Origin: Nitrososphaeraceae archaeon
Lineage (GTDB): Archaea > Thermoproteota > Nitrososphaeria > Nitrososphaerales > Nitrososphaeraceae
DNA length: 64,000 nt
NCBI GenBank assembly: GCA_031316115.1
Contig: JALDRC010000001.1
Location: forward strand, 248,001 to 312,000
Direction of reading: 5' to 3'
Every line of letters begins with the position of its first letter. Within the stretch, counting starts at the first letter, position 1. A program made the position numbers and the translations under genes. The notes below the pieces were generated by a model. It was given only the letters and a program-made list of their open reading frames with translations, was not told the origin of the DNA and searched no databases. This document shows, piece by piece, positions 37,003 to 63,354 of the stretch.

Positions 37003-37024
37003 TTTTTATTGTTAATGATATAAA

Positions 37025-38212: not shown

Positions 38213-38231
38213 TTAAAGTGAGGTGAAAAAA

Positions 38232-41200
38232 ATACCAAAAAATAGCAATATAAAAAAAGTTATAGTATTAGGTAGTGGGGCAATAAAAATCGGAGAAGCA
38301 GGCGAATGTTATCTTAATAGATGACCGCTAATTTGATTACTCTGGTTCACAATGTCTCAAAGCTTTGAGGGAGGAAGGAATTCAAACAATATTAATTAAT
38401 CCTAATATCGCTACTATTCAGACTGATTCTAGATTCTCCGATAAGGTCTATTTACTGCCTATTACTCCTCAATACGTTTCTAAAATATTAGAAATTGAAA
38501 GACCAGATTCTATTATGTTATCATTTGGAGGTCAAACTGCCTTAAACTGTGGTACATCTTTATTTAGAAATGGAACTCTTAACAAATACGGTATAACAAT
38601 TCTAGGAACACCTATAGGAGGAATAGAAAGGACAGAAGATCGACAACTTTTCAAAGAGGCCATGCAAAAAAGTTCAATACCTGTTTTACCTAGTTCTCCA
38701 GCATATACAGTAAAAGAAGCCATAGATATTGCAAAAAAAATGGGTTATCCAATAATCATCAGAGTTGCATATACACTAGGAGGCAAGGGAGGAGGAGTAG
38801 CACATAACGAATATGAACTACAAGAGATTGTACATCGAGGCTTATCCATCAGTATGACTCGCCAAGTTTTAATAGAAAAATACGTAGGTCATTGGAAACA
38901 AATAGAATATGAGGTAATGAGAGACTATAAGGGTAATTCAATAATTGTCTGCAATATGGAAAATATCTTGGCAATGCGAGTACATACCGGTGATAATATA
39001 GTCGTAGCCCCTTCACAGACACTTAATAATTATGAATATCACATGTTACGATCTGCAGCAATAAGAGGGACGAAAGAAGTAGGCATAATTGGAGAATGCA
39101 ATATACAGTTTGGACTTAATCCTAAAAGTGAAGAATACTGTGCGATTGAAATAAATGCGAGATTGTCTAGATCTTCTGCTCTTGCTAGTAAGGCGACTGG
39201 ATATCCCCTAGCATACATGGCTGCAAAATTAGGTATAGGTTATTCCTTAGATGAGTTAGTGAACAAAGTCACTAAGAAAACTACCGCTTTTTTTGAACCT
39301 TCACTAGATTATATAGTTTTAAAAATGCCACGATGGGATTTCAATAAATTTGAGAATGTAAATCGTAGGCTAGGAACTGCTATGAAATCAGTTGGAGAGG
39401 TAATGGCAATTGGAAGAAATTTTGAGGAAGTCATTCAGAAAGCAATAAGAATGTGTGAGACTGGGAAACTGGGCTTAGTTGAAAATTCTGGATTTACAAA
39501 CCCCCAAGAAGAAGAATTGGAAAAAATAGAATATTCACTTTTGTATCCTGATGATACAATTTTATTTCAACTGGTTAGGGCGATATATAATGGTATTACT
39601 ATTGAAAGGATAAATGAATTATCTAGTATAGATCCTTGGTTTCTTACAAAAATTAAGAATATAGTCGAAATGGAAAAAAAACTGAGGAGTATAGGACTAG
39701 ATTTTGATGAGAACATTATAAGAGAATCCAAAAAATTAGGATTTTCGGATAGACAGTTGAGTTCATATCTAAATTTAAATGAAATAATCATACGTAAATT
39801 CAGAAAAAAATTTGGAATAGAACCTGTCATCAAGCAAATTGATACATTGGCAGCAGAATGGCCTGCTCAGACCAATTATCTTTATCTGACCTATGGAGGC
39901 GATACTGACGATCTAACAATCCCCAAGAGAAATAATAATGCAATAGTTCTTGGAGCAGGCCCTTATAGGATCGGTAGTAGTGTAGAATTTGATTGGGGAA
40001 CTGTCAACATGGTTATCGGGTTAAAGGAAAATGGAGCCAATGAAGTATCCATAATCAACTGTAATCCAGAAACAGTATCCACTGACTTCGATGTTTCGGA
40101 TAGATTGTACTTTGAAGAAATAAGTTTTGAAAGAGTTATGGATATTTCCGAAAAGGAAAATTATCCCGGGGTAATTACATGTGTTGGAGGACAAACTGCT
40201 AATAATTTGACATTGAAACTAGCCCAGAATGGTATAAAAATAATTGGGACTCAAAGTAATGATGTAGATAGAGCTGAAGATAGAGAAAAGTTCGGGAAAT
40301 TACTTGATTCGTTAAGAATTCCACAACCTCCATGGAAAAAATTTAATAATCTTCATGAAGCATTTGCCTTTTGTAGAACAGTTGGATATCCAGTTTTAGT
40401 TAGACCATCATATGTTTTGAGCGGAGCTGCTATGAAGGTGGTATGGGATGATCACCAACTAGAAAAATTTATAGAAAATGCAACCATTGTGAGTCCAGAC
40501 CATCCTATAGTTATTACAAAATTTTTTCAAGAAGCTGCAGAAGTCGAAGTAGACGGTGTAGGCACAAAAGAAAATGTAATCATAGGTTCTATAATAGAGC
40601 ATATCGATAATGCTGGAATACATTCTGGTGATGCTATGATGTGTATCCCTCCTTGGAGATTAAGTAGAGATATCATGGATACGATAACAAATTATACTAA
40701 TAAAATAGTTAGATCTCTTAATGTAATAGGACCATTTAATATTCAATTCCTTGTGAAAGATGACAATGTATTAGTTATTGAGGCAAACATCAGGGCATCT
40801 AGATCTTTACCGTTCGTTTCGAAATACATTGGAGTAAATCTAATAAATCTTGCTGCAAAAGCAATGCTTGGAAAGAGTTTACCTAAAATCAAGGACCAAT
40901 GGCTGAAAACGAGTGGTTTTGGCATAAAAGTTCCTCAATTTTCTTTTATGCAACTAGAAGGTGCAGATATAGTGTTAGGAGTTGAAATGCAATCCACAGG
41001 AGAAGTTGCATGTTTTGGGACAAGTTTTTACGATGCCTTAAGCAAATCTTTCACAGCAGCAGGATATTCATTGCCTTTATGTGGAACTGCCTTAATTACC
41101 ATAGGGGGACAAAAAAACAAAGAAAAGTTACTTCCTCTCATTTCATTGATATCTTCAATGGATTTTAAGATTTTGGCTACTGAACATACTGCTGATTTTT

Positions 41201-47456: not shown

Positions 47457-48608
47457 TTGAAATTAACAAAAGTAATATTGGTTACCTATCCTGAGGATTT
47501 TATTTTAAACGAAGGAAAGCAACTTGTACTTTCTATTCCAAATTATGAAATTGTTAAAATTTTTACACAGAAATATCTTAATCATGCAAAATATGGAATA
47601 GGGTCAGGCAAAGCAGAAGAAATAACGCAATTTGTACAACAAACCACAGGAATAGAAGAAATAATTGTGGATAATCACTTGACATCCAAACAGATATACA
47701 ATCTTGAGAAATTGATAGGAGTTACTGTCAAAGATCGTGAAAGACTAATTTTAGATATTTTTTTTACACGAGCCACCACAGTTGAAGCAAAATTACAGAT
47801 TCAATTAGCAGAGATTGAATACGAGATGCCTCGTATAAGGGAAAAGGCAAAACTACTGAGTAATAGTAAAGAAAGAGCGGGAAAAGGCGGAATGGGAGAA
47901 TACATAGTAGATGTACACTTTCGAGACTTGAAAAGACAAATGTCATTTATTAGAGAAAAGTTAAATGATGCAAAACTTAAACGCAAAATCTATCAATATC
48001 AGAGACAGAAAATAAAAATGTATATTGTTTCTCTAGTGGGTTATACAAGTTCAGGAAAAACTACATTATTTAATCTACTTACAGATGAATCCAAAGAGAT
48101 ATCCCCAAATTTGTTTACTACACTTTCAACGACCACGAGATCACTTAAAGATTCTCCTCATAGTAAAAATATTACTAAAAAAGGAGGTGAAGGAATATTA
48201 ATTGTAGATACAGTAGGTTTTATTAGTAGACTTCCCCCGTATATGATTGATGCATTTAAATCTACTTTAGAAGAGTCTATTGTTGCTGATCTAATATTGC
48301 TTTTACTAGATTCATCAGAAGAGATTGAAGATATGAGAATAAAATATTTAAATTGTTTACAGATTTTGGAAGAATTAAATGTGGACAAGTCTAAGTTAGT
48401 TATAGTATTCACAAAAGTAGATAAAATTGATAAAAGAATAATTTCTGAAATCGTGAGAAAATTAGAAATAAGTAAGAATAATAATAGTAATAATAATATA
48501 ATATGGATATCATCTAAAACAGGTTATGGCATCCATAAGCTTAAAACATTATTCATGAAAAAGCAACTCTTACAAACTACACATGAAAATAAAAATGTTA
48601 ATTTATAG
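47457..48608 (+). CDS. hflX: HflX-type GTPase
   Basis: The 383-residue protein has the HflX N-terminal domain (KYGIGSGKAEEITQFVQQTT), the coiled coil around 115-190 with the GKGGMGE motif, and a GTPase domain. G1 is GYTSSGKT (195-202), G3 is DTVGF and G4 is TKVD. HflX binds the large ribosomal subunit and rescues or splits stalled ribosomes. The start is TTG. It is one of the few intact chromosomal genes in the IS island. Confidence 0.95.
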   Translation: MKLTKVILVTYPEDFILNEGKQLVLSIPNYEIVKIFTQKYLNHAKYGIGSGKAEEITQFVQQTTGIEEIIVDNHLTSKQIYNLEKLIGVTVKDRERLILDIFFTRATTVEAKLQIQLAEIEYEMPRIREKAKLLSNSKERAGKGGMGEYIVDVHFRDLKRQMSFIREKLNDAKLKRKIYQYQRQKIKMYIVSLVGYTSSGKTTLFNLLTDESKEISPNLFTTLSTTTRSLKDSPHSKNITKKGGEGILIVDTVGFISRLPPYMIDAFKSTLEESIVADLILLLLDSSEEIEDMRIKYLNCLQILEELNVDKSKLVIVFTKVDKIDKRIISEIVRKLEISKNNNSNNNIIWISSKTGYGIHKLKTLFMKKQLLQTTHENKNVNL

Positions 48609-48857
48609 TACTATACAGAACTAAATTCTGAGGTCGAATAACAGAATTAGTCGATATTATTAAAAGGATGAGAAAAAAACTAGTGATATAAATGGTTACC
48701 CAATAATCTATTACCTTAATAAACAAATAAAATGAAATAATAACAATATAATGTGCAGTAAGGAAGTAAAAATTACGAGCAAGGAGATCAGCAAATCAGG
48801 CCGAAATAGCAAGTTACAAATACTACCAACTCAATCATTATCTTTATAAGATAATAT

Positions 48858-49094
48858 ATGGTGTGCAAGGGAATCTGTTCACGCCATCAAGCAATAAGAC
48901 CTAGTACTGGTATGAGGTATTTGATAGGACAAAAACGTTGTCAGGTTTGCCAAATTTTTATATATTGGCAAGGTTTTTTTTGCCCATGTTGTGGATATAG
49001 ATTAAGAACTAGACCTAGAAATAGGAAATACAAGATCACTTTGAGTAATATAGCAAGCAAATATAAAAGCGGAACTGTCAAAATTCAAAAATAA
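48858..49094 (+). CDS. Small thaumarchaeal zinc-ribbon protein
   Basis: The 78-residue protein has MVCKGICSRH at the N-terminus and RCQVCQIFIYWQGFFCPCCG with two CxxC knuckles. A basic YRLRTRPRNRKYK tail follows. The pattern recalls short multi-copy zinc-ribbon proteins of Thaumarchaeota. It could bind nucleic acid, but the function is unknown. Confidence 0.75.
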   Translation: MVCKGICSRHQAIRPSTGMRYLIGQKRCQVCQIFIYWQGFFCPCCGYRLRTRPRNRKYKITLSNIASKYKSGTVKIQK

Positions 49095-49339
49095 CCGAAA
49101 TGAAAGATAATTAATAAATATTGTTTTGTTCTCATTAACAAGTCATATTAACCCAATCTATAGATTGATAATTTTACATATGCCATAATCTGGCCTTCTG
49201 TAAACATCGAATCTAGACTATTATATTCTTATTATTGTTTAAATATCTCCATGAATAATTTCTAAAGTAATAAATGCTTGAATAATCAGATATTGTTGCC
49301 TCAAAGGAAGTCTCAGGTTAGCTTATGGAAGGCGTGTTA

Positions 49340-49446
49340 AATACATAACTGGATACAATTTATTGTTTCTCTGTATAATGATATAATAGTAAATAATAAT
49401 CGTGATTTTGTTCTGAAGGAGATGAATTTATCTAGAATTAAGAAAC
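49340..49446 (+). mobile_element. IS6-family right-end fragment
   Basis: The text reads TAACTGGATACAATTTATTG, then NNNRDFVLKEMNLS in translation. This matches the last 100 bp of the IS6 copies (HVYxWIQFxVSLYND). It ends near TCTAGAATTAAGAAAC. Confidence 0.5.
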
Positions 49447-49548
49447 ATTTTTTGCTCAAAATTGTAATATTAATGAAGTTAGCAATGATCGTTTGTACTC
49501 AAACTAAATTAGAGGTTGCTATATATATGTGGAGATGTAATATAAATT

Positions 49549-49875
49549 ATGATAACATATAATAGTTTTCCAATGAGAGATTGGCATGTTAAACATATGG
49601 AAAAAACAATAGTCAAATATATTTCTGGACTATCCACAAATCCATCGTTATGGGAAAAGAGGCAATATAAAAGATTTAATAATATTTATCGAACTCGAGG
49701 AAATATAAAAAATGACATCAAACATGGAGTAACAAATGAAGAAGTCCAGTTATTTTTACAGAAACTTCGTGATGATTCTACTTTTCTTGATTTAAGAAAC
49801 AAAGACGGTGTTCTTGAAAGACTGGATGAGGTAGAAAAATATTTCTATAAATTACGCTATCATATAGATAGTTGA
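49549..49875 (+). CDS. Hypothetical protein (108 aa)
   Basis: This charged, helical protein is not recognised (SLWEKRQYKRFNNIYRTRGN; KHGVTNEEVQLFLQKLRDDS). It has no cysteine motif or membrane segment. The ATG follows an AT-rich stretch. Its length and non-repetitive composition favour a real gene over chance. Confidence 0.55.
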   Translation: MITYNSFPMRDWHVKHMEKTIVKYISGLSTNPSLWEKRQYKRFNNIYRTRGNIKNDIKHGVTNEEVQLFLQKLRDDSTFLDLRNKDGVLERLDEVEKYFYKLRYHIDS

Positions 49876-49988
49876 AAAAATCGAACCTTCTTCTATTTTA
49901 TAAGAAAGAGTAACATAGTTTAACCAGCATAGTTTAACTAATTCTAATAATTAAATCATATAAGTGTAGGCGTGTGTTCAATTATTGA

Positions 49989-50023
49989 GTAACGACCAGC
50001 ATAACACAATCAATGGTCGTTAC
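49989..50023 (-). terminator. Strong hairpin downstream of a small zinc gene
   Basis: GTAACGACCA (49989-49998) pairs perfectly with TGGTCGTTAC (50014-50023) around a 15-nt loop. It starts 17 nt after the stop of the minus-strand gene at 50040, so it may end or protect that transcript. No long T run follows. Confidence 0.45.
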
Positions 50024-50039
50024 AAAACGGCAAAAGCTG

Positions 50040-50207
50040 TTATGGTACATTTCTGGAGCATGTATCACAATATTTTTCTATGAGAGTAACGCCATCTCCA
50101 ACGCTGAATAATGCTTCTTGTGTAGCAATCTCACCACAAGATATACAGAATTTAGTCTTTCCGTTATTATTAATAATAGATCTTAACCTTGAAAATACTT
50201 TTTCCAT
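50040..50207 (-). CDS. Small zinc-binding-like protein (55 aa)
   Basis: The frame from ATG 50207 encodes MEKVFSRLRSIINNNGKTKF, CISCGEIATQEALFSVGDGV, TLIEKYCDTCSRNVP. Two CxxC pairs (21-24 and 47-50) form a likely treble-clef or ribbon zinc site. A hairpin follows the stop. Function is unknown. Confidence 0.65.
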   Translation of the reverse strand: MEKVFSRLRSIINNNGKTKFCISCGEIATQEALFSVGDGVTLIEKYCDTCSRNVP

Positions 50208-50598
50208 GTTATTGTCTTTCTCTCCTTGAAGTTGAATCTGATTTCAATAGCAACATGGATTTAATACCTATCATATCACTTATGAATGTATTATTGTTAT
50301 TCATATTATATAACAATTCTTATAGTATAAGAACTTGTCTAATACTTTATAAACAATAGATAGTTTTCAGTGAACTATAAATCATGACTCATCATAGTTT
50401 TGGATTAAATTTTGTATCAAGTTAAATTTACATACCCAATATTTTGTTTATATTAATAATTATCATCAAATAATTCTTATTTCATTTTGTCTAAAAAATA
50501 AGTAATAATTGTTCAAGTTAAAATTTAAGCTTTAAAAATAAATCTATTTCTCTTTATTTCACTATATTAGAATTTATTATCATTACAATTGAATTAAT

Positions 50599-51321
50599 GG
50601 TTCTGTTAACTTAAGCAGAAACAGCTATAGCTGAGAACATTCTATTTATAATATGAATCAAATCAAATTTGAGAAAGAACTAGAACATCTAACTATATTG
50701 TAATGTATTCTCTTTACCTGTACTTTCTTGGTTTGAGTTTACGAAATGCATCTAAAGCATTGATTATATTTAGAGATGAAATGCAAAGTCATGTTTCTGT
50801 TTGGAACTGGATTCAGAGTTTTGGGTTCATGCCAAATTTACAAGAGAAAAAGAGTACCTGCTTTTATTATAGTTGAAACAATTGTTCAGATAGGACAGAA
50901 ACATTTCTGGTTATGGGTTTGTATTGAACCTTTGTACAGTTCTGTGTTTGGAATCTATCTCTCTGAAGAGAGAAATATGCTTGTTGCTGAAAAATTCATC
51001 AGATCTCTTGTATCAAAATATGGAAAACATACCATCTATACAGATGGTGGAACATGGTATGATTAAGCATGCAATGTAATTGGATTAAAACACTATCTAT
51101 ATTCTTCAATAGAGAAAAGTTTGATGGAAAGAGTAAACCAGTACCTGAAAGATCCTATAGAAAGTTTTGATGATTACTATCCATGTAGTCAAGAGGAATG
51201 CAATCTATTTCATGTACATACCTGGATACAATTTTTATTTCTATGTACAACGATACTATAGCAAACAATAATCATTTTGAGTTAGAAAAGGAGGTGAGTA
51301 TTATCTTAAATTAACAGAGCC
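50599..51321 (+). mobile_element. Decayed full-length IS6-family copy
   Basis: The ends are GGTTCTGTTAACTTAAGCAG and AATTAACAGAGCC (723 bp). Frames retain YLYFLGLSLRNASKAL, then [19 protein letters not shown] and SSIEKSLMERVNQYLKD, broken by several stops. GAATTAAT precedes the left end and recurs 4 bp beyond the right end, possibly an 8-bp target duplication. Confidence 0.78.
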
Positions 51322-51539
51322 TTTAGAATTAATAATACTCTCGAATAACTCAGAATACCTAAATAATTTCGTATAATAGTGTGTTATATTAATTATCATG
51401 TATTTTCTAATCAAATTTTATTTTCGTATGTGATATAGAGTAGAAGTTATCAACTAACATGTTTATCCCCCTAATATCCTCACAGTGTTTCCCAAAAATT
51501 AATTGATTAAATTATTACAGGAAGGAAACTAATATTATG

Positions 51540-52330
51540 GTAAAGGAAAGATTCTCTTTGTAATAAGAGCAAAATTTGGTAATGTCATTTCTGCTTATTC
51601 TTCTGATGACATATATAGAAATAGACCATGGCGTTTATACTGGCTAGATAGGTTCTCCAAAAATGAGTAGAGGGATTCAAAAATAAACCAAAAAGTGGTA
51701 GACATCAAGATATACAGACACAACATTACATAAGATACAAAATGAATTAGCTTCCAGCAAATTGGGTTGGACTACAAAACAGGGTGAAGATTTGATTCTA
51801 AACAAAAGTGGAATCGAATATCACCATATCCAAATTTAAAGACAAGCATAGAGGGGGATTCAAACAGAAGGTAATAAGAAAGGTCTATGTAAACACACCA
51901 TCTAAGGAGTAAAAAGAGCATTTTAAAAAGAATCAAAAATCCTGAATACCTTCCAATAGAGAGTTAACAGTAGTATCACTTGATGAATCATTCTTCTTCA
52001 ATAATTCCCTTAACAGGAAAAGTAGTGATAGAAAAAGAAGATGTACCAGTTGTAAGAATCATAATATCCATTCAGGATCAGTCTTATTTGGCACTACCAG
52101 TATAGATATGAAACAGTATTCAGATAATATCACTGGTTTAATGAAAATACATTTTTAGATTACCTGAAGAAAATAGAAAAGAAATTCCCAAAATGCCACC
52201 TCCTCCTGGATAACGCAAAATAGCTTTATAGATTAAAAAAACGAATATTTTGATAAATATAAAAAATTTGATTCCGAAATGTATACCGATAGCATCTTCT
52301 GAATTTATGGTTCTAGAAGAGACATAGCAT
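51540..52330 (+). pseudogene. Decayed IS630-family transposase
   Basis: Fragments in several frames follow the IS630 order: RPWRLYWLDRF and SGRHQDIQ (helix-turn-helix end), then TVVSLDESFFFNN (first acidic motif), KFPKCHLLLDNA (LxLDNAxxH) and a late PKCIPIASSEFMVLEE. Many stops are present and no termini were found. Confidence 0.55.
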
Positions 52331-52577
52331 TTTACTAAAGATGATCTGCATGTCTCATAATATTATTCTTTCTTTACCAATTTCAGAAATAAAATAAATA
52401 GATAGTTTATAACTAAAAGATTCAATCTAAATACAAGAAATTATTACTTTCGAGAATTGATAATTAGAAAACATAAGCTAGTTGGTATAATTAAAAATAT
52501 ATTACCATGGATTAATAAATAAATCTATATATTGTATAGAAATAAATATTACTATACAAAGGGCATTAATACATGAG

Positions 52578-52584
52578 TTATATA
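52578..52584 (+). promoter_or_regulatory. TATA box of the phasin-like gene
   Basis: TTATATA is centred 24 nt before the ATG at 52605. This favours that ATG over the one 12 nt upstream. Confidence 0.5.
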
Positions 52585-52604
52585 CCATACTAATGTTTAT
52601 ATAT

Positions 52605-53219
52605 ATGTCTTCCAAAGAAGTAAAAATAAATGAAAATAGAGATATAACTGATCAGAAATCTAATAAAAAATATACAACTAAATCTAACAAAGATTATAAT
52701 AATTTCAATGAAACAATAACTAACACCTTAAATCAACAACAAGATGCAATAAACAAGATACTTGATAATACATTACATAATATAAAAAAAAGTACATACC
52801 AAGCTAGCAAACAAATCCCACAATATACCCAACGTATAGCTGAATTTCAAGAACAAAATATTCAAATGCTCAAAGAGATTGCTTCTGACTTTATAGAAGC
52901 AGAAAAACAAATAGTAGCCTCTTTTCAAATAAATGGAGATAGAAATAATAATGTAAACTTTACTGATGATTTATGGGATTTGTATAATCCACAAAGAATT
53001 GCTGAAAATCACATAGTATCTGTAAGTAATTTCACAATCTATTTGTCAAATACCAACAATCTAATAAATGATGCTCTGGTATCTAATTTGGGAGTATACA
53101 ATAGAGCGCTTAAACAAACACAGGATGATGTAAATGCTTTCGCAAAAGCAAATACAAATACAAATCATATAAAATCAGCAACTGTTTATAATAAAGATGC
53201 AAATACTTTTATTCCTTGA
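52605..53219 (+). CDS. Phasin-like coiled-coil protein, paralogue 1
   Basis: The 204-residue soluble protein has a charged N-terminus and a long amphipathic helical middle (LNQQQDAINKILDNTLHNIK; EFQEQNIQMLKEIASDFIEA). A DLWDLYNPQRIAENH turn and another helical region follow. About half of the aligned residues match the protein at 59782-60366. Size, composition and helices recall phasins that coat polyhydroxyalkanoate granules, which some soil Thaumarchaeota can make, but no PHA synthase is here. Function is inference. Confidence 0.7.
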   Translation: MSSKEVKINENRDITDQKSNKKYTTKSNKDYNNFNETITNTLNQQQDAINKILDNTLHNIKKSTYQASKQIPQYTQRIAEFQEQNIQMLKEIASDFIEAEKQIVASFQINGDRNNNVNFTDDLWDLYNPQRIAENHIVSVSNFTIYLSNTNNLINDALVSNLGVYNRALKQTQDDVNAFAKANTNTNHIKSATVYNKDANTFIP

Positions 53220-53334
53220 CAATACATCTTTATATGATACAAAAAACTATCGTATATGTACTATGGAACATTTTTGCAAGTAAAAAGATTTGAAATGATA
53301 TTAAATGAAATCTTTTATTTCATAAAATAGTTCC

Positions 53335-53696
53335 AAAATTATTATTATAGTAGATGATGAGTATGTTGATCTTTTTAGTTCTAGAATATTTTAAGAATCA
53401 GATTATATTATTACTTTATTTATTTATTCCTTATTACCACTGATTTATATTATAATCCTTCCAGATTTTAGTGTGCGATTACTAATACCAAATATCGGGA
53501 TCAAATATTTGAATTGCTTCAAAATATATAAACAAATAGAAGATATAGGTCATGCAATAAGAATTGTTTTGTAACTTTAGATATTTTAGATGACTTTTTC
53601 TGTATAGTTCTAGGAATATCTGCAGGTCAAATTATGATAAAACCTGTAGATAAACGGATATTTTTAAATACTGTGAAAAAGGTTTTATCAAGACTG
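53335..53696 (+). pseudogene. Decayed response-regulator receiver domain
   Basis: Pieces follow the receiver order. KIIIIVDDEYVDLFSS is strand 1 with the acidic pair. FSVRLLIPNIGIKYLNCFKI resembles the phosphoacceptor strand with its MPxxDGxxL loop. ISAGQIMIKPVDKRIFLNTV ends with the KPVDK strand 5 motif. Stops and frameshifts separate them, and the phosphoacceptor Asp is not preserved. Confidence 0.5.
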
Positions 53697-53766
53697 TTTT
53701 ACCATCGAATTTAATACAATAGTATTTCTGATTCGTGGATTATACAAATAAATGAATTGATTGATC

Positions 53767-54493
53767 GGTGCTGTTAAGTTAACGAAAGAGCTAAAGCTAT
53801 GAATGTTCTATTTCTAATCTATGGTCATTAGATTATTTGAAAGAAACAGAACATCCACATGTATAGTAATGTATTCTTTGTATTTGTACTTTCTTGGTCT
53901 CAGTCTATGAAATACGGCTAAAGCACTGGAACTATTTAAGGATCAGAATAGAAGTTATGTTGCAATTTGGGAGTGGATTCAACGTTTTGGTTCACTACAG
54001 ATTTTTAAGAGAAAAAAAGTATCTGCTTTTATCATAGATGAAACTATAATTCAGATTGGTAACCAACATTATTGGTTATGGATTTGTATTGAACCAGTTC
54101 AAAGATCTGTTCTTGGAATCAATATATCAGAACAGAGAAACATGTTTGTAGCAGAGAATTTTATCAGATCTCTTGTATCTAAATATGGTAGACATACAGT
54201 TTACACTGATGGTGGTACATGGTATCCTCAAGCATGTAACTTTTTACATCTAAAACATAGATTACATTCTCCTTTGGAGAAGAGTTTGATTGAAAGAGTT
54301 CTGCAGTATTTTAAAGATAGAACAGAATGTTTTGATGATTGCTATCCATGTATCAAAAAGAATAGTAGTAGAAAATGTGATCTTCAACATGTATACAATT
54401 GGATGAAATTATTTGTTTATCTCTATAATTCAAAAGTTAGAAATATTATTTTATTCAAAATTGGAGGTGAAATACTCTTAACTTAACAGGACC
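53767..54493 (+). mobile_element. IS6-family copy, nearly intact (727 bp)
   Basis: The terminal inverted repeats GGTGCTGTTAAGTTAA and TTAACTTAACAGGACC bound one transposase frame. It reads FLGLSL then a TGA then NTAKALELF, followed by [40 protein letters not shown] and [11 protein letters not shown], which are the three acidic motifs. The TGA replaces an Arg codon (CGA in other copies). This is the best-preserved IS6 copy here. No clear target duplication is visible. Confidence 0.85.
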
Positions 54494-54523
54494 GAAGTAA
54501 CATATAGATTAAAGCAAGTATAT

Positions 54524-54721
54524 ATGTATCTGATGAATAAAGAAATAAATAAAAAAAAATATGTAGATCGTGAGGGAAGAAATGAAATATTAGCAATTCA
54601 TGAAGGTGATTTTGTACGATTTTTTAGAATAGAAGGAGGTAAGATGTTGGACGAGGATGTTCTTATTTTCGGAGATTTCATAATCATGACGAGGGAAGAA
54701 GGTTGGAAGGAAATAGTATAA
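54524..54721 (+). CDS. Hypothetical small protein (65 aa)
   Basis: The product KKYVDREGRNEILAIHEGDF, VRFFRIEGGKMLDEDVLIFG is short, acidic and beta-rich. It is not recognised. It may be a native gene lying just beyond the IS6 right end. Confidence 0.4.
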   Translation: MYLMNKEINKKKYVDREGRNEILAIHEGDFVRFFRIEGGKMLDEDVLIFGDFIIMTREEGWKEIV

Positions 54722-54775
54722 TTAATACGCTCACATTAATTAAGATATTATACTTTTATAATATTGATATTCAAA

Positions 54776-54886
54776 GGCTCTTTTAACTTAAGGAAATTTT
54801 AAGATAAAAATAAAAAATCTATCAAAAATGAGCATAGAACATATTAGGAAAAGTAGATATTGAGAGAATTTTTACCTTTAAGTTAA
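54776..54886. mobile_element. Miniature IS6 remnant split by an IS110 derivative
   Basis: The left end GGCTCTTTTAACTTAAGG and right end CCTTTAAGTTAACA enclose only about 85 bp. The outer part of the right end, CAGAACC, is found at 55213-55219 on the far side of the inserted IS110 derivative. No coding sequence remains. Confidence 0.55.
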
Positions 54887-55212
54887 CATCTATTAAAATC
54901 TCGATCTGTATCAGGTCATCATTATGTTCCTATTAACAGTAATTTTCTATTATAATTAATAATATTAAGGGTTATCGAGAATAGCCTATGCTAGATATGT
55001 TATTTTCCTTTCATTTTTATTTTTTCATTCTTTTTTTCTTTTTTTATTTCGGCTTAGAGGCGGCAAACATCTATTCGCCTTCTTTATGAGGTAGCATTAT
55101 AGCCGCTCGGATATAGGTTCAGTCAGAGCCTGACTCTCTCACGTAGTATGTTAATTTTGAACCTAGCCTGCATACAAAAGGGAACGGTACCCAATAGAAT
55201 TTTTCATCTAGT
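54887..55212 (-). mobile_element. Transposase-less IS110 derivative (copy B), about 326 bp
   Basis: On the minus strand it starts right after GGTTCTG (55219-55213). It reproduces the IS110 leader, crosses to the right tail at GGAA, and ends GATG before TTAACTTAAAGG. Length and junction match copy C at 31369-31695. It lacks the transposase found in the complete copy at 60824-62260. Confidence 0.72.
55051..55170 (-). ncRNA. Candidate bridge-RNA-like leader (copy B)
   Basis: It is strongly similar to the leader of the intact IS110 (GGCTAGGTTCAAAATTAACA is identical). It has a perfect hairpin AGTCAG-GCT-CTGACT, an AGGTTCA/TGAACCT pairing, the GGTTC-N4-TTAAC box (55163-55150) and an outer GGCT/AGCC pairing. 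The loop between these parts differs from the intact copy. Confidence 0.5.
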
Positions 55213-55220
55213 CAGAACCG

Positions 55221-55424
55221 ATAAAACGTCTATCAAAAAGAGAGACAATAAGAATAAGTGCTGGAAGACATTTCAAACATCAGATAAGTGATAAGTTTGT
55301 CATGCTTTTAGTATACTACAAATTGTACATCACCAATGCGTTATCAGGAGTTCTGTTTGGTCGTGATCAGAGCAATGTACAAAGAGATTCAAGATATTTG
55401 GAACTAATCGTACAGCCTAAATAA
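55221..55424 (+). pseudogene. N-terminal transposase fragment (HTH_Tnp_4/DDE_Tnp_4 type)
   Basis: One frame reads IKRLSKRETIRISAGRHFKH, QISDKFVMLLVYYKLYITNA and LSGVLFGRDQSNVQRDSRYL, then stops. This is the MLLxYYRxYxTxxxxGxLFxxDQSNVxRxIxxLE helix-turn-helix typical of transposases with a Tnp_4 catalytic domain. The catalytic domain is missing. Confidence 0.55.
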
Positions 55425-55625
55425 TAGATCATATAATTATAACAAATATTGATTTCCAGGGATTACAGTTGGAGTTAGCTCTGTGGAGTCCAAAATAAAA
55501 AAAATTGGTAAAAATGCTTTTATAATCTTTGTATGTATTCATGAATATTATAGATTTGCAAAACTATTCTTCCTAATGGGAATATGACATATCAAACTTA
55601 AATATTCGTTCTGTATATATAAAAC

Positions 55626-55718
55626 ATGTTTCGTAACATATTTGGTAAATTATTTGGTAAAAAAGAAAAGAAAATAGATAACAAAATAGAAGATAAAAAG
55701 CTAAAAGAAAACGCTTAA
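55626..55718 (+). CDS. Possible 30-aa basic peptide
   Basis: The ATG frame encodes MFRNIFGKLFGKKEKKIDNK, IEDKKLKENA. The amphipathic FRNIFGKLFGKK start looks like a membrane-binding helix. It is too short to be sure. Confidence 0.3.
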   Translation: MFRNIFGKLFGKKEKKIDNKIEDKKLKENA

Positions 55719-56225
55719 TTATATCTATTTTTGAATTTTGTTTGGTTATCATCCCCGTGTAAACTCTGGTACAATTAATTGACCTTGTACGCTTTCCTTT
55801 GCATACCTAACCAGATCAATACACTTCTTTCACCATGATAAGTTGCAACATTCCAATAACTTGATCGTCTTAAGCGAGTATGTTATTAAGTAACGCATTT
55901 ATTATTTTCATTTCTCTCCGCCACAGAAACAAATTTTATTTTCACTATTAACTAGGTCAACCTGTAAAGATAAGTCATACTACAAAAAGTAGCATTTATT
56001 TCTGTATTTACTCTATATATAATGTAATATTCAAATTTTTTCATATTGTTAATATCTTCTTCTATTCTTTTATGTGGGATTTTTTCAACAATTTCTTATT
56101 TATCAATTAATATTCTTTAAGGTAATACCCCATCTTTTGGAATAGAAATTAGATAGTTATTGATATAACATCACGTTTGACTCAAGCCTGAGGTTAGTCC
56201 TGTTAAACTAATCGGAAGTGTGATA
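55719..56225. other. Intergenic region
   Basis: About 500 bp with no recognised gene or RNA. The last part may belong to the 5' end of the IS5 copy that follows. Confidence 0.35.
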
Positions 56226-56752
56226 AAAAGATAGGAATAAAATGGAATTGGCAATCACTTGATAGTATCTCTATAAAATCACCTTTAGGGGGCGATGACA
56301 GGTCATAATCCTACAGTTAGGAGTAAATTAGGTAGCAAAAGACATATTCTGACAGATAAAGATGGTATTCCTCTTTCTACTTTTATAACATCTGCAAATA
56401 CTCATGATGTTACTGTTGCAACAAAGACAATGGATAATATCGTTCTCCAACGACCATCAACATCATCTACATCCAAATATAACCAGAATCTATGTCTTGA
56501 TAAAGCATATCAATCCAAAGAAGTAGAACAAGAAATCATCAAAAGAGGATACACTCCTCATATACGTCGCAGAAGAGAGAAAGACAACAAATTATTTTAT
56601 AAAAAGCATACTGCAAGAAGATGGGTAGTAGAGAGAACAAATTCATGGCATAACAGATTTAGGAAATTGTTTACAAGATATGAAAAGAAAGATGAGAACT
56701 ACTTGCTCTTGTAGAATTAGCAAATAGTGTTATTATTTATAGGGGGTTAATT
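56226..56752 (+). pseudogene. Truncated IS5-family (IS427-like) transposase
   Basis: WNWQSLDSISIKSPLGG is followed after a frameshift by TGHNPTVRSKLGSKRHILTD, then ITSANTHDVTVA, DKAYQSKEVEQEII, RRWVVERTNSWHNRFRKLFT and, after another frameshift, VELANSVIIYRGLILG. This is the standard second half of a DDE_Tnp_1 transposase. The N-terminal domain is missing. Confidence 0.75.
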
Positions 56753-56817
56753 TTGGGATAGACTCTAAATATATTGATTTCAAGTAGATATCTATAACCA
56801 GAGATGCTAATAATAAA

Positions 56818-57104
56818 TCGGAATTATAGTTTCATCCATGGTGTATGCAGTTAATCTTTTTCTTAATTTTGTATGATTCAACTGCAAACATTGGTATCCA
56901 TTTCCAAACAGCAATAAACACATTTTATCATCTCCAAATATAATCAATGCTTTAGATGTATTTCGTAAACTTAAACCAAGAAAGTACAGATAAAGAGAAT
57001 AAAGTACAATAAAAGAAGAGTTTTTATGCCAATTAAATTTAATTTTATTCATATCATATTTAGAACATTCTTAGCTATATCTTTTCCTACTTATTTTAAG
57101 AGCC
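56818..57104 (-). mobile_element. IS6-family left-end fragment
   Basis: The minus strand starts at a terminus GGCTCTTAAAATAAGTAGG (57104) and encodes VLYSLYLYFLGLSLRNTSKA and a TMDETIIPI segment before similarity ends. The catalytic C-terminal half is missing. Confidence 0.65.
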
Positions 57105-57129
57105 ACAGATTGCGATTAAAAATGAAGTT

Positions 57130-57324
57130 TTATATAAAATTTGGTTTCCAGTATTTATTATTCCATTTTATAAATTCTGGATTTTGCATGTCATCATCAT
57201 ATTTTATCTCATAAATTTCATTATTTTCAAGTATTGAATTAATGAGTAAATCGCAGTTAACATAAGATATGGTGTTAGAAGCCGAAATCCACATATTACT
57301 TTCTGACATCTTCTTTTTTATCAT
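57130..57324 (-). CDS. Hypothetical fragment downstream of the cyclase-like gene
   Basis: A 64-residue frame (SESNMWISASNTISYVNCDL, YDDDMQNPEFIKWNNKYWKP) starts 1 bp after the stop of the cyclase-like frame. It may be a separate small gene or the displaced C-terminus of that protein. The IS6 fragment begins 26 bp beyond its end. Confidence 0.35.
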   Translation of the reverse strand: MIKKKMSESNMWISASNTISYVNCDLLINSILENNEIYEIKYDDDMQNPEFIKWNNKYWKPNFI

Positions 57325-58458
57325 CTATTTGATATTCCCCAAATTGGATAAGATATTTATCTTTCCAAAACCAACTTCCATACTGTTAAATCGAAAATTA
57401 GTACTTTCTTCAATATTTCGCCTAATCTCATTCACATATGACTGTTCGATCTGTAATAATGTCACTCCCCAATCTTTATGCCAATTAAGAAAATCTATAC
57501 ATAAATCCCTTGTGTTGTGGTTTTCCCAATCTTTTTTTATGTTATATTTTTCCATGACCATGATTCTAGTACTTGTTAGCCTTGGATTATTTTTAGCTGA
57601 TCTTCTCCTTAATCTTGCATGATAATTTAATAAAGATGTATTTGAATGATACCTTAGAAATCTACTAGGGACCATTGTATTGATAGAATCATAGGTTTTA
57701 GCATGTTGGAAAAGTGAATGATACATATTTTTCATTGAACCATTAAGTAAAATTATATTATAACCTTGATCTATTTTCTTCTTTAGGAGAATCCCTTCAT
57801 ATTCAAAAAACGTATCAAATGGACTAGACAATTCAGAATCTATATTTATTCTATCAATAATACCTCGTTTATCTACTGGAAAATTACAGTTCCCAAAAAT
57901 TTGAAAATCGTTATTTGGTGAATTATTACAAAAATTAGCTACATGTATTGACTTTTGATGCTTAACAAAATATTCACCTAAATCCTGGAATAATCGTCGA
58001 CTTAGTTTAGCTGGTAATAGACGTTCTAAATCATTCTTGTGTTTGTTAAAACTTTTGTATATATTCTCACTCAACAATATATGACCTTCATCACAAGCTC
58101 TCACATAATCTTCTCGCTATTGCTGGTCCGTCACCCCAAACGGGAATTCCTACTAGTGATCTGGCAGTATCGAGTTCAATTGCATATCCTCGTGCTATTC
58201 CAATTTTTAATCTTAAATTAGATTGATCTCTTGATTGAGGAAATTCCTTATGTATTTTTAATGCAAGATGTAAGGGTAATATAGTATCTTCCTTAAACCA
58301 TATTATAACTCCGTCGCCTGTAAATGCAGTCTGAATTATCTTTTCATGAGAAGATAAAATATCTTTAATTACTATTAATAAGTCTTTAATATTTTGATTC
58401 TGTGATTCTGGATCTTTTGAAGAACCAACTATATCAATACAAAAAAATCATATTCCAT
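57325..58458 (-). pseudogene. Class III nucleotide-cyclase-like gene with two frameshifts
   Basis: The minus strand reads FCIDIVGSSKDPESQNQ, FTGDGVIIWFKEDTI, LKIGIARGYAIELD and VWGDGPAIARRL, then after a one-base shift near 58107 RACDEGHILLSENIYKSF. This is the order of a class III adenylate/guanylate cyclase homology domain. An unrecognised domain of about 230 residues follows. The ATG at 58458 is out of frame with the domain because of a run of seven T. With both frames corrected the gene would encode about 375 residues. Either the gene is dead or two homopolymer/base errors are present. Confidence 0.65.
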
Positions 58459-58865
58459 AAAAAATAATATTAAGTTCCAAATATCTAACCTTTTCTAATG
58501 TTAGTATAATTCAAGCAGTATATACTATAATTAACCTGTGAAACGATCTTCATTTCTTACGTGTAGATATTTAAAAATCAATATTATTTATCATTTCAAC
58601 ATAATCAATCTTACAATTTAAGTTAAATTTCAATTTTTTGAATTAGAATGTTTATAAATCATTTCCTAATTTTTTATAACTATTATTAATAAATTATTGT
58701 AATTAGTAGCATAAAACTTAATACATACTTTTCTAAGATTTAAGATAGTTGGTATGTAAAGGTAAATATATGTAATACTAATAAAGATTAATAATAGAAA
58801 GTAGAAAGTGAAAATCCATTTCAGAAAACAATCAATTTATAATGAAGCATGTATAAATATTTCAA
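58459..58865. other. Divergent intergenic region
   Basis: About 400 AT-rich bp between the cyclase-like gene and a small zinc gene. Nothing else was recognised. Confidence 0.35.
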
Positions 58866-59006
58866 ATGTATTTGAGTTGTACATTATGTAAGAAGGAGTT
58901 TAATAATTTGGTTGAAGGAGTAAAATATTCCAGTTCGGCTATAGGTGTTATATCATTTTGTTCAGATAAATGTTGTAGGATATATCTTAACGAAAAATTG
59001 AAATAG
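58866..59006 (+). CDS. TRASH-like small zinc/metal-binding protein (46 aa)
   Basis: The frame from ATG 58866 encodes MYLSCTLCKKEFNNLVEGVK, YSSSAIGVISFCSDKCCRIY, LNEKLK. CxxC followed by FCSxxC matches the TRASH metal-binding knuckle, found in metallochaperones and metal sensors. Function is unknown. Confidence 0.62.
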   Translation: MYLSCTLCKKEFNNLVEGVKYSSSAIGVISFCSDKCCRIYLNEKLK

Positions 59007-59118
59007 ATGATTTTCTTTTTAATAATAGTCTAATAATTTCCCAATAAACAAAAATAACCTACCAAAATTGAAAATAACGATATATAGATTTGATTGAAAT
59101 TACCAAAGTAATTTAAAG

Positions 59119-59637
59119 TTATTGTATTATCAAAACGGGTTTTTTAATATGTCTAACTATTTTGTGGACATCACTAAATAAAGATTTAAACCATGAATCC
59201 ATATGTAAAGATAACATAATGACCAAATCATAGTTATTGTTATTAATTTCATCTGCTATTCCATCAACTACATTACCGGTTAGAAATTTATAAGAAACAT
59301 TATTTTTACATCCTGCTACTTTGCATTTCTTGATTTTATCCTCCATAGCCTCTATTACATCCCCTTTTATCTTTCGATGAAAGTCTTGATCATCAATTTG
59401 TGATATCTCATGAGACCCCTCGAATGAAATATTTCCTAATTTTTCAACATCTGGTAATATACGAAGAATAAATAATTCTGCGCCAGTAGAATTAGATAAA
59501 TAAACAGCATAATTAAGTGCCTTATTTGATATATCTTTTCCATCATCAGTAACGAGTATTTTTTTAAACGCAGGGAGTTTATCTTTTGAGATACGGAATT
59601 CGTCTATTTCTTTAGGGGTATCTTTATCTTTACTCAT
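59119..59637 (-). CDS. Universal stress protein (UspA family)
   Basis: The 172-residue product has FKKILVTDDGKDISNKALNY at strand 1, a central acidic helix and an insert with two cysteines (KKCKVAGCKNN). The C-terminal GNVVDGIADEINNNNYDLVI and KKPVLIIQ complete the Usp fold. The usual G-2x-G-9x-G-S/T ATP loop is not evident, so it may not bind ATP. The ATG at 59637 has a TATTTATA box about 26 nt upstream and is preferred to a start 42 bp further out. Confidence 0.88.
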   Translation of the reverse strand: MSKDKDTPKEIDEFRISKDKLPAFKKILVTDDGKDISNKALNYAVYLSNSTGAELFILRILPDVEKLGNISFEGSHEISQIDDQDFHRKIKGDVIEAMEDKIKKCKVAGCKNNVSYKFLTGNVVDGIADEINNNNYDLVIMLSLHMDSWFKSLFSDVHKIVRHIKKPVLIIQ

Positions 59638-59781
59638 AATATATGTATATAATGTTTTGATATAAATATATAACTTCAAATTTATATCTAGATATTTTAT
59701 AATAAAAATTAGAGGCTGGATTTAATATCAAATCAAACCCAGTAGTTTTTAGTTATTCTTAATATTTACTTCTAAATTACA

Positions 59782-60366
59782 TCAATTAACCTGTTTTAAA
59801 TAACTTGTATTTGTTCTTAGTAAAGTCTTTAAATTATCACGAGTATGTTCAAGTGCTGTATCATATAATCTCATATTAGATTCCAAAGTATTATTTATAA
59901 CATTGATGGAATTTAATAGATAGGTTGTGAAATTATTTACCATTACTGTGTTATTTTCAAAGATTCTTTGTGGATTATACCAATCCCATACTTCAGAGAG
60001 GTTTACATTATGTCTATCTGCTTTTGATTGAAAAGAATCTATTACTTCTTTTTCTGCTTCGATAAAGTCAGATGCAATATCTTTTACAGTTTGAATAGTA
60101 TGTTCTTGATATTCAGAAAAACGTTGTGCATATCTTGGAATTTCTCGTGTAGCTTCATCGGTACTTTTTTTAATAGTTTGTAAGGTGTTGTCAAGAGTTT
60201 TGTATATTGCATCTTTTTGTTGATTTAATGTTTTATTGTAGTCAAAATTTATACTTTCAGTGAAATTATTGTTGTCTTTATTGAATTTAGTTGTATTTTT
60301 TTCACTAAATTTTGGTTCATTTACTGATATATTTTCTGTTTTTTTTATTTCTTCTTTTGCTGACAT
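59782..60366 (-). CDS. Phasin-like coiled-coil protein, paralogue 2
   Basis: The 194-residue helical protein is a clear paralogue of the product at 52605-53219. They share LDNTLxxIKKST, IASDFIEAEK and WYNPQRIxEN, with about half of the aligned residues alike. No signal peptide or membrane helix is present. Phasin-like coating of granules is one idea. Structural or stress roles are equally possible, and the neighbouring universal stress protein gene fits a stress role. Confidence 0.7.
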   Translation of the reverse strand: MSAKEEIKKTENISVNEPKFSEKNTTKFNKDNNNFTESINFDYNKTLNQQKDAIYKTLDNTLQTIKKSTDEATREIPRYAQRFSEYQEHTIQTVKDIASDFIEAEKEVIDSFQSKADRHNVNLSEVWDWYNPQRIFENNTVMVNNFTTYLLNSINVINNTLESNMRLYDTALEHTRDNLKTLLRTNTSYLKQVN

Positions 60367-60541
60367 AAAGATATGTAACTTATCAACACATATAAACTAA
60401 CATAATTGTATCTAATGTGTATGTATATTCTGTAGATTAACTATTTTTATTTTATATAAATTACTAACAAACAGTAAAGTTTATTCTAATTAAGTATGAT
60501 ATTAACGTCATTTTTTATTCCTATTTTTATTTTTATTTTTA

Positions 60542-60745
60542 TTATAGATCATTCTTTTTTAATAATGAAAAAATTTTGATACGTTTACATATTAAATTTA
60601 TCAATAAATAGGATAGTAAAGAAGCGGCTAAAGATGATATTATAACTGCCTCAAACGGCCTAAATCCTGCTAGCAATAGCTCAAACAATATTATCCATCG
60701 TGACACATTATTAACTACATCAAATATTGACCAAGCAAATAGCAT
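60542..60745 (-). CDS. Small two-helix membrane protein (67 aa)
   Basis: The product MLFAWSIFDVVNNVSRWIIL, FELLLAGFRPFEAVIISSLA, ASLLSYLLINLICKRIKIFS has two hydrophobic stretches and a basic C-terminus. It is not recognised. It could be a truncated gene next to the IS110 insertion. Confidence 0.45.
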   Translation of the reverse strand: MLFAWSIFDVVNNVSRWIILFELLLAGFRPFEAVIISSLAASLLSYLLINLICKRIKIFSLLKKNDL

Positions 60746-60859
60746 CTTTTTTATTATCTGTTTTAAGATAGTAAAGTTAATCTGGCTAGTAAATTTATCA
60801 GTATAGTTATCTTTATGGCTCTGACGATATGAAAATCTTATAGTTTGTTTATTGTTGTA

Positions 60860-60984
60860 TGTTGGCTAGGTTCAAAATTAACATACTCCGTAAGAGAGTG
60901 AGGCTGTGACTGAACCATATCTTATGAAGTGGCTATCATACTACAATAGAGAGTGCATGGATGTTTGCCACCTGTTAGCCAACA
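60860..60984 (+). ncRNA. Candidate bridge RNA of the IS110 element
   Basis: TGTTGGCTA (60860-60868) is perfectly complementary to TAGCCAACA (60976-60984), enclosing 125 nt. Inside, GGTTCA pairs with TGAACC. GGTTC-N4-TTAAC (60869-60882) echoes the two halves of the insertion site GGTTCTG^TTAAC. IS110 elements such as IS621 express a bridge RNA from the leader that specifies donor and target. That this is such an RNA is inference. Confidence 0.6.
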
Positions 60985-61019
60985 AAACAAGAAAAAAAGA
61001 AGGTGAATAAAAAAGGAAA

Positions 61020-62090
61020 TTGAATCATCTTGGAATAGATGTTGGAAAGAGAAAATGCAGGGCAGCACTAAAAGACGATAAAGGAAAGATACTAGATGAA
61101 TTCTTCTTTGGTAACAATTCTGATGGAATATCCAATCTAATTAATAGGATATATTATCATGACACAAAAGAATGCAATGCGGTACTGGAATCTACAGGCA
61201 ACATGTGGATGAGAATACACTACACACTAGAAGATAATGGAATAGATACTATACTAGCAAATACATACAAGACAAAGATAATAGCACAAGCAAAGATAAA
61301 ATCAGATAAACTTGATGCACGTATTCTATCTGATCTACTGAGAACTGGATTGATATACGAGTCATATGTACCTGTAAAGGAATTTAGAGACAAAAGGAGT
61401 CTTGTTAGACATAGGATAGTATTATCTCGAACCAAGACAAAACTGGCAAACAAGATACACTCGATTTTAGACAAATATGAATACAGAACAGAACTGACTG
61501 ATATATTTGGAAAATCCGGAATTGAATGGTTGAAATCACTGTCTGTCTCACCAATAGACAGGATAATTCTGGATACGACGCTGACATCAATAGAATCTAT
61601 CGATAACCAAATACAAATAGTATCAAAAGAGATTGCAAGATATGCATGGCAGGACAACAAGGATGTAAAAATACTTCTCAGTATGACAGGAATTGACATA
61701 TTTTCTGCAATGTTGATATCAACAGAGATAGTTGATATTCACAGATTCTCTACACCATGGAAACTAGTCAGTTATGCAGGACTTGCACCTTCAACGCGAG
61801 AATCATCAGGAAAAATAAAAACAGGACAAATAACAAAACAAGGATCTCCCTTGTTGAGATGGATATTGGTACAGTGTGCATTATCTGCAATAAGACATGA
61901 CCATCATATGAGAACATTCTATGAAAGAATCAAACAGAGAAAGGGACACGGTAAAGCCATAGTAGCAACAGCAAAAGAGATGCTTGTCATAATATGGTAC
62001 ATGCTAACAAGACAACAATTGTATCGATTCAAGAACAGGACCAGATATGAGCAGAAACTACAACGACTGAAGAAGAGTGGATCTAAATAA
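61020..62090 (+). CDS. IS110-family transposase (RNA-guided DEDD recombinase)
   Basis: The 356-residue protein has an N-terminal RuvC-like DEDD domain (GIDVGKRKCRAALKDDKG; VLESTGNMW; KIKSDKLDARILSDLL). A coiled middle is followed by the C-terminal Transposase_20 domain (LLSMTGIDIFSAMLISTEI; SYAGLAPSTRESSG; ITKQGSPLLRWILVQCA), whose serine should attack DNA. The start is TTG. No stop or frameshift is seen, and it is the only intact transposase in the window. It could act in trans on the two short derivatives. Confidence 0.93.
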   Translation: MNHLGIDVGKRKCRAALKDDKGKILDEFFFGNNSDGISNLINRIYYHDTKECNAVLESTGNMWMRIHYTLEDNGIDTILANTYKTKIIAQAKIKSDKLDARILSDLLRTGLIYESYVPVKEFRDKRSLVRHRIVLSRTKTKLANKIHSILDKYEYRTELTDIFGKSGIEWLKSLSVSPIDRIILDTTLTSIESIDNQIQIVSKEIARYAWQDNKDVKILLSMTGIDIFSAMLISTEIVDIHRFSTPWKLVSYAGLAPSTRESSGKIKTGQITKQGSPLLRWILVQCALSAIRHDHHMRTFYERIKQRKGHGKAIVATAKEMLVIIWYMLTRQQLYRFKNRTRYEQKLQRLKKSGSK

Positions 62091-62260
62091 AGATAATTAG
62101 ATAATCAGACAATAAATAACAATACGATGACTTGGAGAACACGGAAGCCACATATAGCGAATGCTATTGTCTAAAATGCTTAATAGATAGAAAGACATAA
62201 CAAAACATGGCTAAACAGGATACAAAAGATAACCAGCATACATGTAGATTTTCATGGATG

Positions 62261-62976
62261 TTAATTTAAGATAATGTTTACCTCCTTTAATAAAAAATCA
62301 TTATTATTATTCACTATAGTATAATTATACATAGAAACAAAGAATTGTATCCAGCTATATACATGAAATAGATCACACTCTTCTTTGATACAAGGATAGT
62401 AATCATCAAAACTTTCTATTCTGTCTTTCAAAAACTGGTTTACTCTTTCCATCAAACTTTTCTCTATTGAAGAATGCAAATAGTGTTTTAATCCAATTAC
62501 ATTGCATGCTTAATCATACCATGTTCCACCATCTGTATAAATGGTATGTTTTCCATATTTTGATACAAGAGATCTGATGAATTTTTCAGCAACAAGCATA
62601 TTTCTCTCTTCAGAGAGATAGATTCCAAACACAGAACTGTACAAAGGTTCAATACAAACCCATAACCAGAAATGTTTCTGTCCTATCTGAATGATGGTTT
62701 CATCTATTATGAAATCAGTTACTATTTTTCTTTTGTAAATCTGACAGGATCCAAATCTTTGAATCCAATTTCAAACAGACACATGATTTCTTTTATCATC
62801 TCTGAATATTACTAATGCCTTAGATGTACTACGTAAACTCAATCCAAGAAAATACATATACAAAGAATACATTACAATAAAAGTAGAGGTTTTATTCCTT
62901 TCAAATTTAATTTTATTCATATCATATTTAGAATTTTCTTAGCTATATCTTTTACTGCTTATCTGAACAGAGGCCT
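62261..62976 (-). mobile_element. Decayed full-length IS6 copy with IS110 in its right end
   Basis: On the minus strand it starts GGCCTCTGTTCAGATAAGCA (62976) and runs through remnants such as SSIEKSLMERVNQFLKDRIE and SFDDYYPC to CTTAAATTAA at 62261. The last seven bases of its right terminus lie beyond the IS110 element at 60817-60823. Stops disrupt the transposase. Confidence 0.75.
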
Positions 62977-63004
62977 TTCATCTATTATATATGAATGTAG
63001 TAAC

Positions 63005-63243
63005 TCTTCTTCTCTTGAAGATCTTTACTGAAACAAATCGTTGAATCCACTCTTAAACTGAAACATGACTCCTATTCTGAATCTTAAAAGGTTCCAATGC
63101 TTTGGATTTATTACTTAAGTCAAGTGCCTATAAAGATAATATGTTACCATTAATGAAGTTCTATTTTTTTCAAATTTGATTTTATACATATCACAACTAC
63201 AAGCTTCTTAGCTATATCTTTTGCTGCTTGAATTAAGAGTCAG
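63005..63243 (-). mobile_element. IS6-family left-end fragment
   Basis: Read on the minus strand, a terminus GACTCTTAATTCAAGCAGCA near 63243 leads into sequence matching the first third of the IS6 copies (AGAGTGGATTCAACGATTTG). It stops close to the next IS6 copy. The catalytic region is absent. Confidence 0.55.
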
Positions 63244-63354
63244 AATAACACCAAAATTTGAAATCATATTTTATCTAACTCAGATTAAATCTAATTTTTT
63301 AAGTTCATTGTTGACTAAAGTATAAATAGTAAAATTAAAAGTCAAATTAGGAAT

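Follow-up and report, generated by a model that had tools for sequence, protein, structure and literature searches.

A probable young pseudogene for a cyclase homology domain joined to a PLD-like domain in a Nitrososphaeraceae genome

Extent of the gene and its lesions

The stretch of DNA analysed here, called the window in the following, comprises 64,000 nucleotides of a Nitrososphaeraceae genome (assembly GCA_031316115.1, contig JALDRC010000001.1, positions 248,001 to 312,000), and carries the remnant of a gene that encoded a cyclase homology domain (CHD) followed by a PLD-like domain (Table 1). The ATG start is found at 58458-58456 on the minus strand and a TAA stop at 57130, and the intact gene would have had approximately 444 codons, as in its close intact relative L010; intact homologues in general have about 445 residues. 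The pieces in the window are 69-74% identical to L010 and to a second close intact relative, L011 (tblastn, segments with E = 0.0). The original prediction placed the end of the gene at 57325 and gave the repaired protein 375 residues. Both values are too short, since the reading continues to the stop at 57130, and the open reading frame at 57130-57324 is the C-terminus of the broken gene as judged from the alignment with L010 and L011.

Table 1. Positions in the window of the broken gene, its two domains, its lesions and a neighbouring transposase fragment
Feature	Position	Strand	Basis
CHD and PLD-like gene remnant with at least four small indels	57130..58458	-	Comparison at the DNA level with the intact copies L010 and L011
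Class III CHD with linker	57946..58458	-	Alignment of relatives and predicted fold of an intact relative; border approximate
PLD-like domain without HKD motif	57130..57945	-	Predicted structure of the domain of an intact homologue; motif scan
Lesion 1	58441..58447	-	T run lacking one base that L010 and L011 have
Lesion 2	58098..58104	-	One extra base; may equal +2 and -1 close together
Lesion 3	57367..57368	-	One base fewer than in L010/L011, lost between 57368 and 57367
Lesion 4	57298..57299	-	Two bases missing between 57299 and 57298 compared with L010/L011
Neighbouring DDE transposase fragment	56295..56714	+	PF01609, 6e-15, profile positions 28-188 of 200

The cyclase part is read in one minus-strand frame and the remainder in another, and the net changes along the gene are -1, +1, -1 and -2 bases. 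The two one-base shifts reported originally, one in the T run (now seven T) and one near 58100, are real according to the DNA alignment with L010 and L011. They had been described as the only damage, which does not hold, since two further frame-changing deletions are present near 57368 and 57299. Additional lesions, one of two findings named beforehand as counting against the original prediction, are therefore present, while the other, an N-terminal part that is not a cyclase domain, was not encountered. The earlier argument for recency, which was built on the presence of two lesions, also fails with at least four.

Very recent inactivation is nevertheless supported on other grounds. In the aligned frame no stop codon occurs in the 439 codons that are comparable among the window copy, L010 and L011, while neutrality over the entire length of the window branch would predict about 33, and this confines the neutral time to at most approximately the last 9% of that branch. 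For the window branch a dN/dS of 0.19 was estimated (0.12-0.28 by bootstrap), which is not above the value of either comparison branch (0.19 for L010 and 0.35 for L011). The absence of stops together with the unrelaxed dN/dS indicates that the gene was under selection until late.

The two domains and their relatives

The cyclase homology that was predicted for the N-terminal part is borne out by profile and by structure. A profile made from 12 homologues matched 3mr7 among the solved structures (E 2.9e-4). The model of the full protein was of low quality as a whole (pLDDT 56.2), and the N-terminal domain alone was used; the predicted domain of intact L010 matches 3mr7 with a Z of 18.1 and an rmsd of 2.3 over 159 aligned residues, and Ma1120 with a Z of 17.6. 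As far as predicted models go, the CHD fold of the family is firm. Pfam assigned no family to L010 and L012, and L021 reached 20.2 bits with PF00211, under the cut-off of 21.9; neither NCBIfam nor Pfam offered a name for the L010 protein.

Both metal-binding Asp are invariant in all 16 aligned CHDs, taken from the Nitrososphaeraceae family and the window's genome, and are also found in the window copy. Half of these CHDs are of a TGDG type (L010, L012, L021, L111, L109, L041, L008 and L039), and the base-reading Lys is found in none of these eight and in all of the eight others. At the position four before the second Asp the TGDG-type domains have V/S/S/N/N/N/L/L, and the window copy has A. 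The Asp before W-G is missing in the eight TGDG-type domains and the Asn is replaced in every one of them (by A, T, V or I). The Arg is retained in seven, the exception being L010 with Ser, and is also present in the window copy. We take Lys and Asp to be base-reading, Asn to be ribose-orienting and Arg to be the transition-state residue. In the alignment the adenylyl cyclase Ma1120, for which a structure is solved, carries Ala where Asn is usual, and structure titles with 'KDA to EGY' fit this, so that loss of the Asn alone is no proof of inactivity.

The family has the fold and both metal Asp in common with class III cyclases (PF00211; 3mr7, Ma1120, Rv1900c), but the TGDG-type domains differ from these by having neither the base-reading Lys, nor the Asp before W-G, nor the Asn. 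The pair of base-reading Lys and Asp that marks an active adenylate cyclase, or its guanylate equivalents, is thus not found. The absence of the purine-reading residues, with both metal Asp kept, makes the intact homologues good candidates for forming a non-standard cyclic nucleotide.

The C-terminal domain was originally called unfamiliar. This is correct by sequence, as there is no Pfam family for it in L010, but not by predicted structure, which is PLD-like. The fold was predicted from 18 sequences on the domain of the clade B protein L021 (pLDDT 80.3, pTM 0.78), which is only 21% identical to L010 in this domain. In the comparison of this model with solved structures, 50 out of the 50 matches listed, with Z from 9.0 to 12.3, are PLD-superfamily or PLD-like proteins as judged from their titles. 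The highest values were obtained for Zucchini (Z 12.3), NucT (11.7) and Nuc (11.3), while the effector domains of TrmB and TrmBL2 gave Z 9.1-10.6 at 12-17% identity, and the best match in Foldseek was PLD3 (E 6.2e-4). In a viral structure library the top match, A0A1L3IZS5, carries no name, and the next is a fragment of an envelope protein from orf virus; neither changes the PLD-like reading. A PDB sequence search with the domain alone was set aside, as its best E of 0.071 is chance-like.

The HKD motif HxK(x)4D, scanned as HxK(x)3-5D, was absent in 17 of the 18 sequences, and the sole match, in L103, lies outside the hairpin. This absence suggests that the domain, if the predicted fold is correct, is more likely a binding domain than a catalytic one. 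L103 has the C-terminal domain without a CHD, behind a short N-terminal part which is DNA-binding-like by eye and has no match in Pfam, and L109 has an added C-terminal part weakly resembling a methyltransferase.

The long open piece of the gene gave matches in 12 of the 70 Nitrososphaeraceae genomes searched, including L010 and L011, and the C-terminal domain was found in 13 of the 70, representing two of 12 genera. A phylum-wide draw of 250 genomes contained the domain in two, both Nitrososphaeraceae, and the 10 loci obtained from named genomes all belong to Nitrosocosmicus or Nitrososphaerales archaeon TH1177. This archaeal gene joining a CHD to a PLD-like domain is rare and was, in the genomes searched, found only in two Nitrososphaeraceae genera. 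There is no second copy in the window's own genome. Decayed relatives exist: the G012 copy has suffered a TAG in frame as well as a frame change, and what is left in G005 contains three stops. A TAG late in the gene is found in the G007 copy. L010 is located on contig C232 of the Nitrosocosmicus bin G011, and shows 73-75% to the window's genus compared with 49-52% to the other Nitrosocosmicus copies. This odd affinity may be due to either transfer or misbinning.

In four genomes (G005, G007, G008 and G011) the clade A gene lies at most 3 kb from a radical SAM gene and at most 7 kb from a gene for a small protein, but neither of these was seen on the contigs of G010 and G059. In the window's genome both genes are located past the window end, at window-equivalent positions 65276-66319 and 69075-69389, and transposon sequence intervenes. 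Only the closeness of the radical SAM gene is suggestive of a partnership. Co-occurrence was also considered as a way to a functional partner and was uninformative, the radical SAM gene being present in 55 of the 70 family genomes compared with 13 for the C-terminal domain. Five of the six clade B loci viewed have an ABC-type ATPase gene near the clade B gene and a small ORF behind it. This ORF (L056-L060) has approximately 105 codons, runs in the direction of the clade B gene, is 40-89% identical between loci and is a possible partner.

Nature of the lesions and proposed function

We consider it probable that the window copy is a young pseudogene, and that the intact protein consists of a CHD and a PLD-like domain without HKD motif, the latter likely serving as a ligand-binding control of the CHD. 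Judged from one assembly, the odds of a real young pseudogene against an artefact are about four to one. The gene would have been disabled recently in this genome by the small indels, in a transposon-rich stretch; long open frames cover 33% of the zone 48600-63300 compared with 68% of positions 1-48600.

A sequencing or assembly error, by which an intact gene of the living strain had acquired four artefactual indels, would also leave the codons free of stops and the selection unrelaxed, as errors in a live gene look the same, and one of the lesions sits in a run of seven T. However, this is the only lesion with a long homopolymer, and four breaks within 1.33 kb are to be compared with eight core proteins of the window (4162 codons) whose matches to curated families extend to the C-terminal end or close to it without a break inside the ORFs, although these control genes were picked as long and recognisable and are therefore biased toward intact ones. 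In carA and carB, whose N-terminal ends came out short and were looked at further, the internal indels compared with G060 consist of one of 3 bases and an insert in carB, the latter common to G060. If indels were evenly spread, the chance that four out of four would fall within 1.33 kb of 13.8 kb is approximately 1 in 10,000, a figure which serves as a guide only since the gene was chosen because it is broken. It also speaks against error that the relative G012 has lost a copy independently through its own TAG and frame change. The eight intact core genes therefore favour a real young pseudogene, and the sequencing artefact which the original prediction offered as an alternative is less likely than real lesions; we regard it as unlikely. 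The break in carB had suggested an error-prone assembly as the default explanation, and this was dropped when the insert was found at the same place in G060 and G008; as its letters are changed and its hairpin is kept in both, carB is no evidence of assembly error.

For the intact protein behind this probable pseudogene we propose that a small ligand would bind to the PLD-like domain, and that the ligand-bound domain would change the activity of the CHD, modelled on TrmB. The CHD would then make a cyclic nucleotide, which need not be an adenine or guanine one since the residues reading these bases are missing. Ligand binding, control of the CHD and any cyclase activity are inferred in this proposal. 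PLD-like effector domains control DNA binding in the archaeal TrmB regulators, and the TrmB and TrmBL2 effector domains (2f5t, 3qph, 5bpd) have the PLD-like fold, and an archaeal origin, in common with the C-terminal domain described here, in which HKD is lacking. Unlike in TrmB, the domain is joined to a CHD and not to a winged-helix DNA-binding domain, which places the protein outside the TrmB family, and it is no closer to TrmB than to Zucchini, NucT and Nuc (Z 11-12). Pycsar cyclases make cCMP or cUMP and have a CHD without the canonical purine-reading residues; this trait is common to the present family. A Pycsar system would combine a PycC cyclase with a PycTM or PycTIR effector beside it. 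PADLOC gave no match for L010, L012 and L021, in a library that may not hold every PycC clade, and the loci viewed showed no apparent effector gene that they share next to the cyclase gene.

A more far-reaching reading is that a PLD-like effector domain switches a cyclase for a product other than cAMP or cGMP, so that the same sensor module drives transcription in L103-type proteins and a second messenger in the others, with clade A acting together with the radical SAM protein. We find this quite unlikely, but if true it would represent an unreported archaeal signalling enzyme with a sensor domain otherwise belonging to one-component transcription regulators. Alternatively, the C-terminal domain might act as a phosphodiesterase or nuclease of the PLD type, and the whole protein as a defence effector, as the PLD superfamily fold, the patchy distribution and the repeated decay could indicate. 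This is very unlikely in view of the motif scan, in which the only HxK(x)3-5D match fell outside the hairpin, the lack of a PADLOC family for the three proteins submitted, and the conserved neighbourhood that five of the six clade B loci viewed share. Codon-level constraint is still visible and might suggest that the gene works through frameshifting or as split products, but this can hardly be credited: four separate frame changes would be required, and the six clade A relatives in alignment A1 all do without one.

In the open-access literature we found no description of a CHD fused to a non-catalytic PLD-like domain, and no study of the products or control of thaumarchaeal or Nitrososphaeraceae cyclases; the consulted part of PMC5847659 does not mention cyclase. 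The fusion of a class III CHD with a presumably non-catalytic PLD-like domain is thus an apparently new architecture. The window copy, being probably dead, would show that the gene is dispensable and has little importance beyond that, and it is the intact homologues which are small and testable.

The carB insert and other features of the genome

The sole carB copy of the window, with exon 1 read from a GTG at 38223, has a frame-breaking insert of 25 nt at 38307-38331, exon 2 being read from 38332. In the best 30 matches (L061-L090) of an order-wide draw, where 110 of 121 genomes gave a match, an insert of 21-32 nt is found at exactly the same codon boundary in 27 loci from five families, and in three there is none. 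Each of the 24 distinct forms of the insert either shifts the frame or introduces a stop. Of 96 cells, the 4-bp helix beside the 3-nt bulges is paired in 93, compared with 48 when slid by one base, and the corresponding values for the inner stem are 115 and 39 of 120; the hairpin is covarying across loci. With the insert cut out at the bulges, carB would again encode the conserved Gly-Glu-Phe-Asp-Tyr-Ser-Gly (GEFDYSG). The insert fits a tiny bulge-helix-bulge (BHB) pre-mRNA intron. By 2020 only one other BHB intron in archaeal mRNA had been reported according to the part of PMC7714728 consulted, that of cbf5, and cbf5 is the only spliced archaeal mRNA named in the consulted parts of that article and of PMC2738675. 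No report of a BHB intron in carB was found in the literature searched, and the insert may be worth more than the cyclase pseudogene.

Around the beginning of carA (window approximately 37022-37154; L044, L050) the window, G060 and G008 all lack an ATG, GTG or TTG start in frame. The gene begins with ATT-CC (Ile-Pro) in all three, which suggests a conserved AUU start.

The window's genome has 11 matches to PF00211 in several architectures. L001 has a cupredoxin-like domain with a CHD, L003 and the similar L002 and L007 a CHD with a response-regulator receiver, and L039 and the similar L008 a KaiC-like ATPase with a TGDG-type CHD. The many cyclase domains in ammonia-oxidising Nitrososphaeraceae give the present finding its context.

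Repeats are found in and near the window. One of about 714 bases (62259-62972) has dozens of copies across the genome, mostly 82-92% identical, and more in relatives. The segment 59716-60835 is 98% identical over 1.1 kb to C1:326746-327860 in the same genome, approximately 15 kb past the window end, and this pair is a recent duplication.
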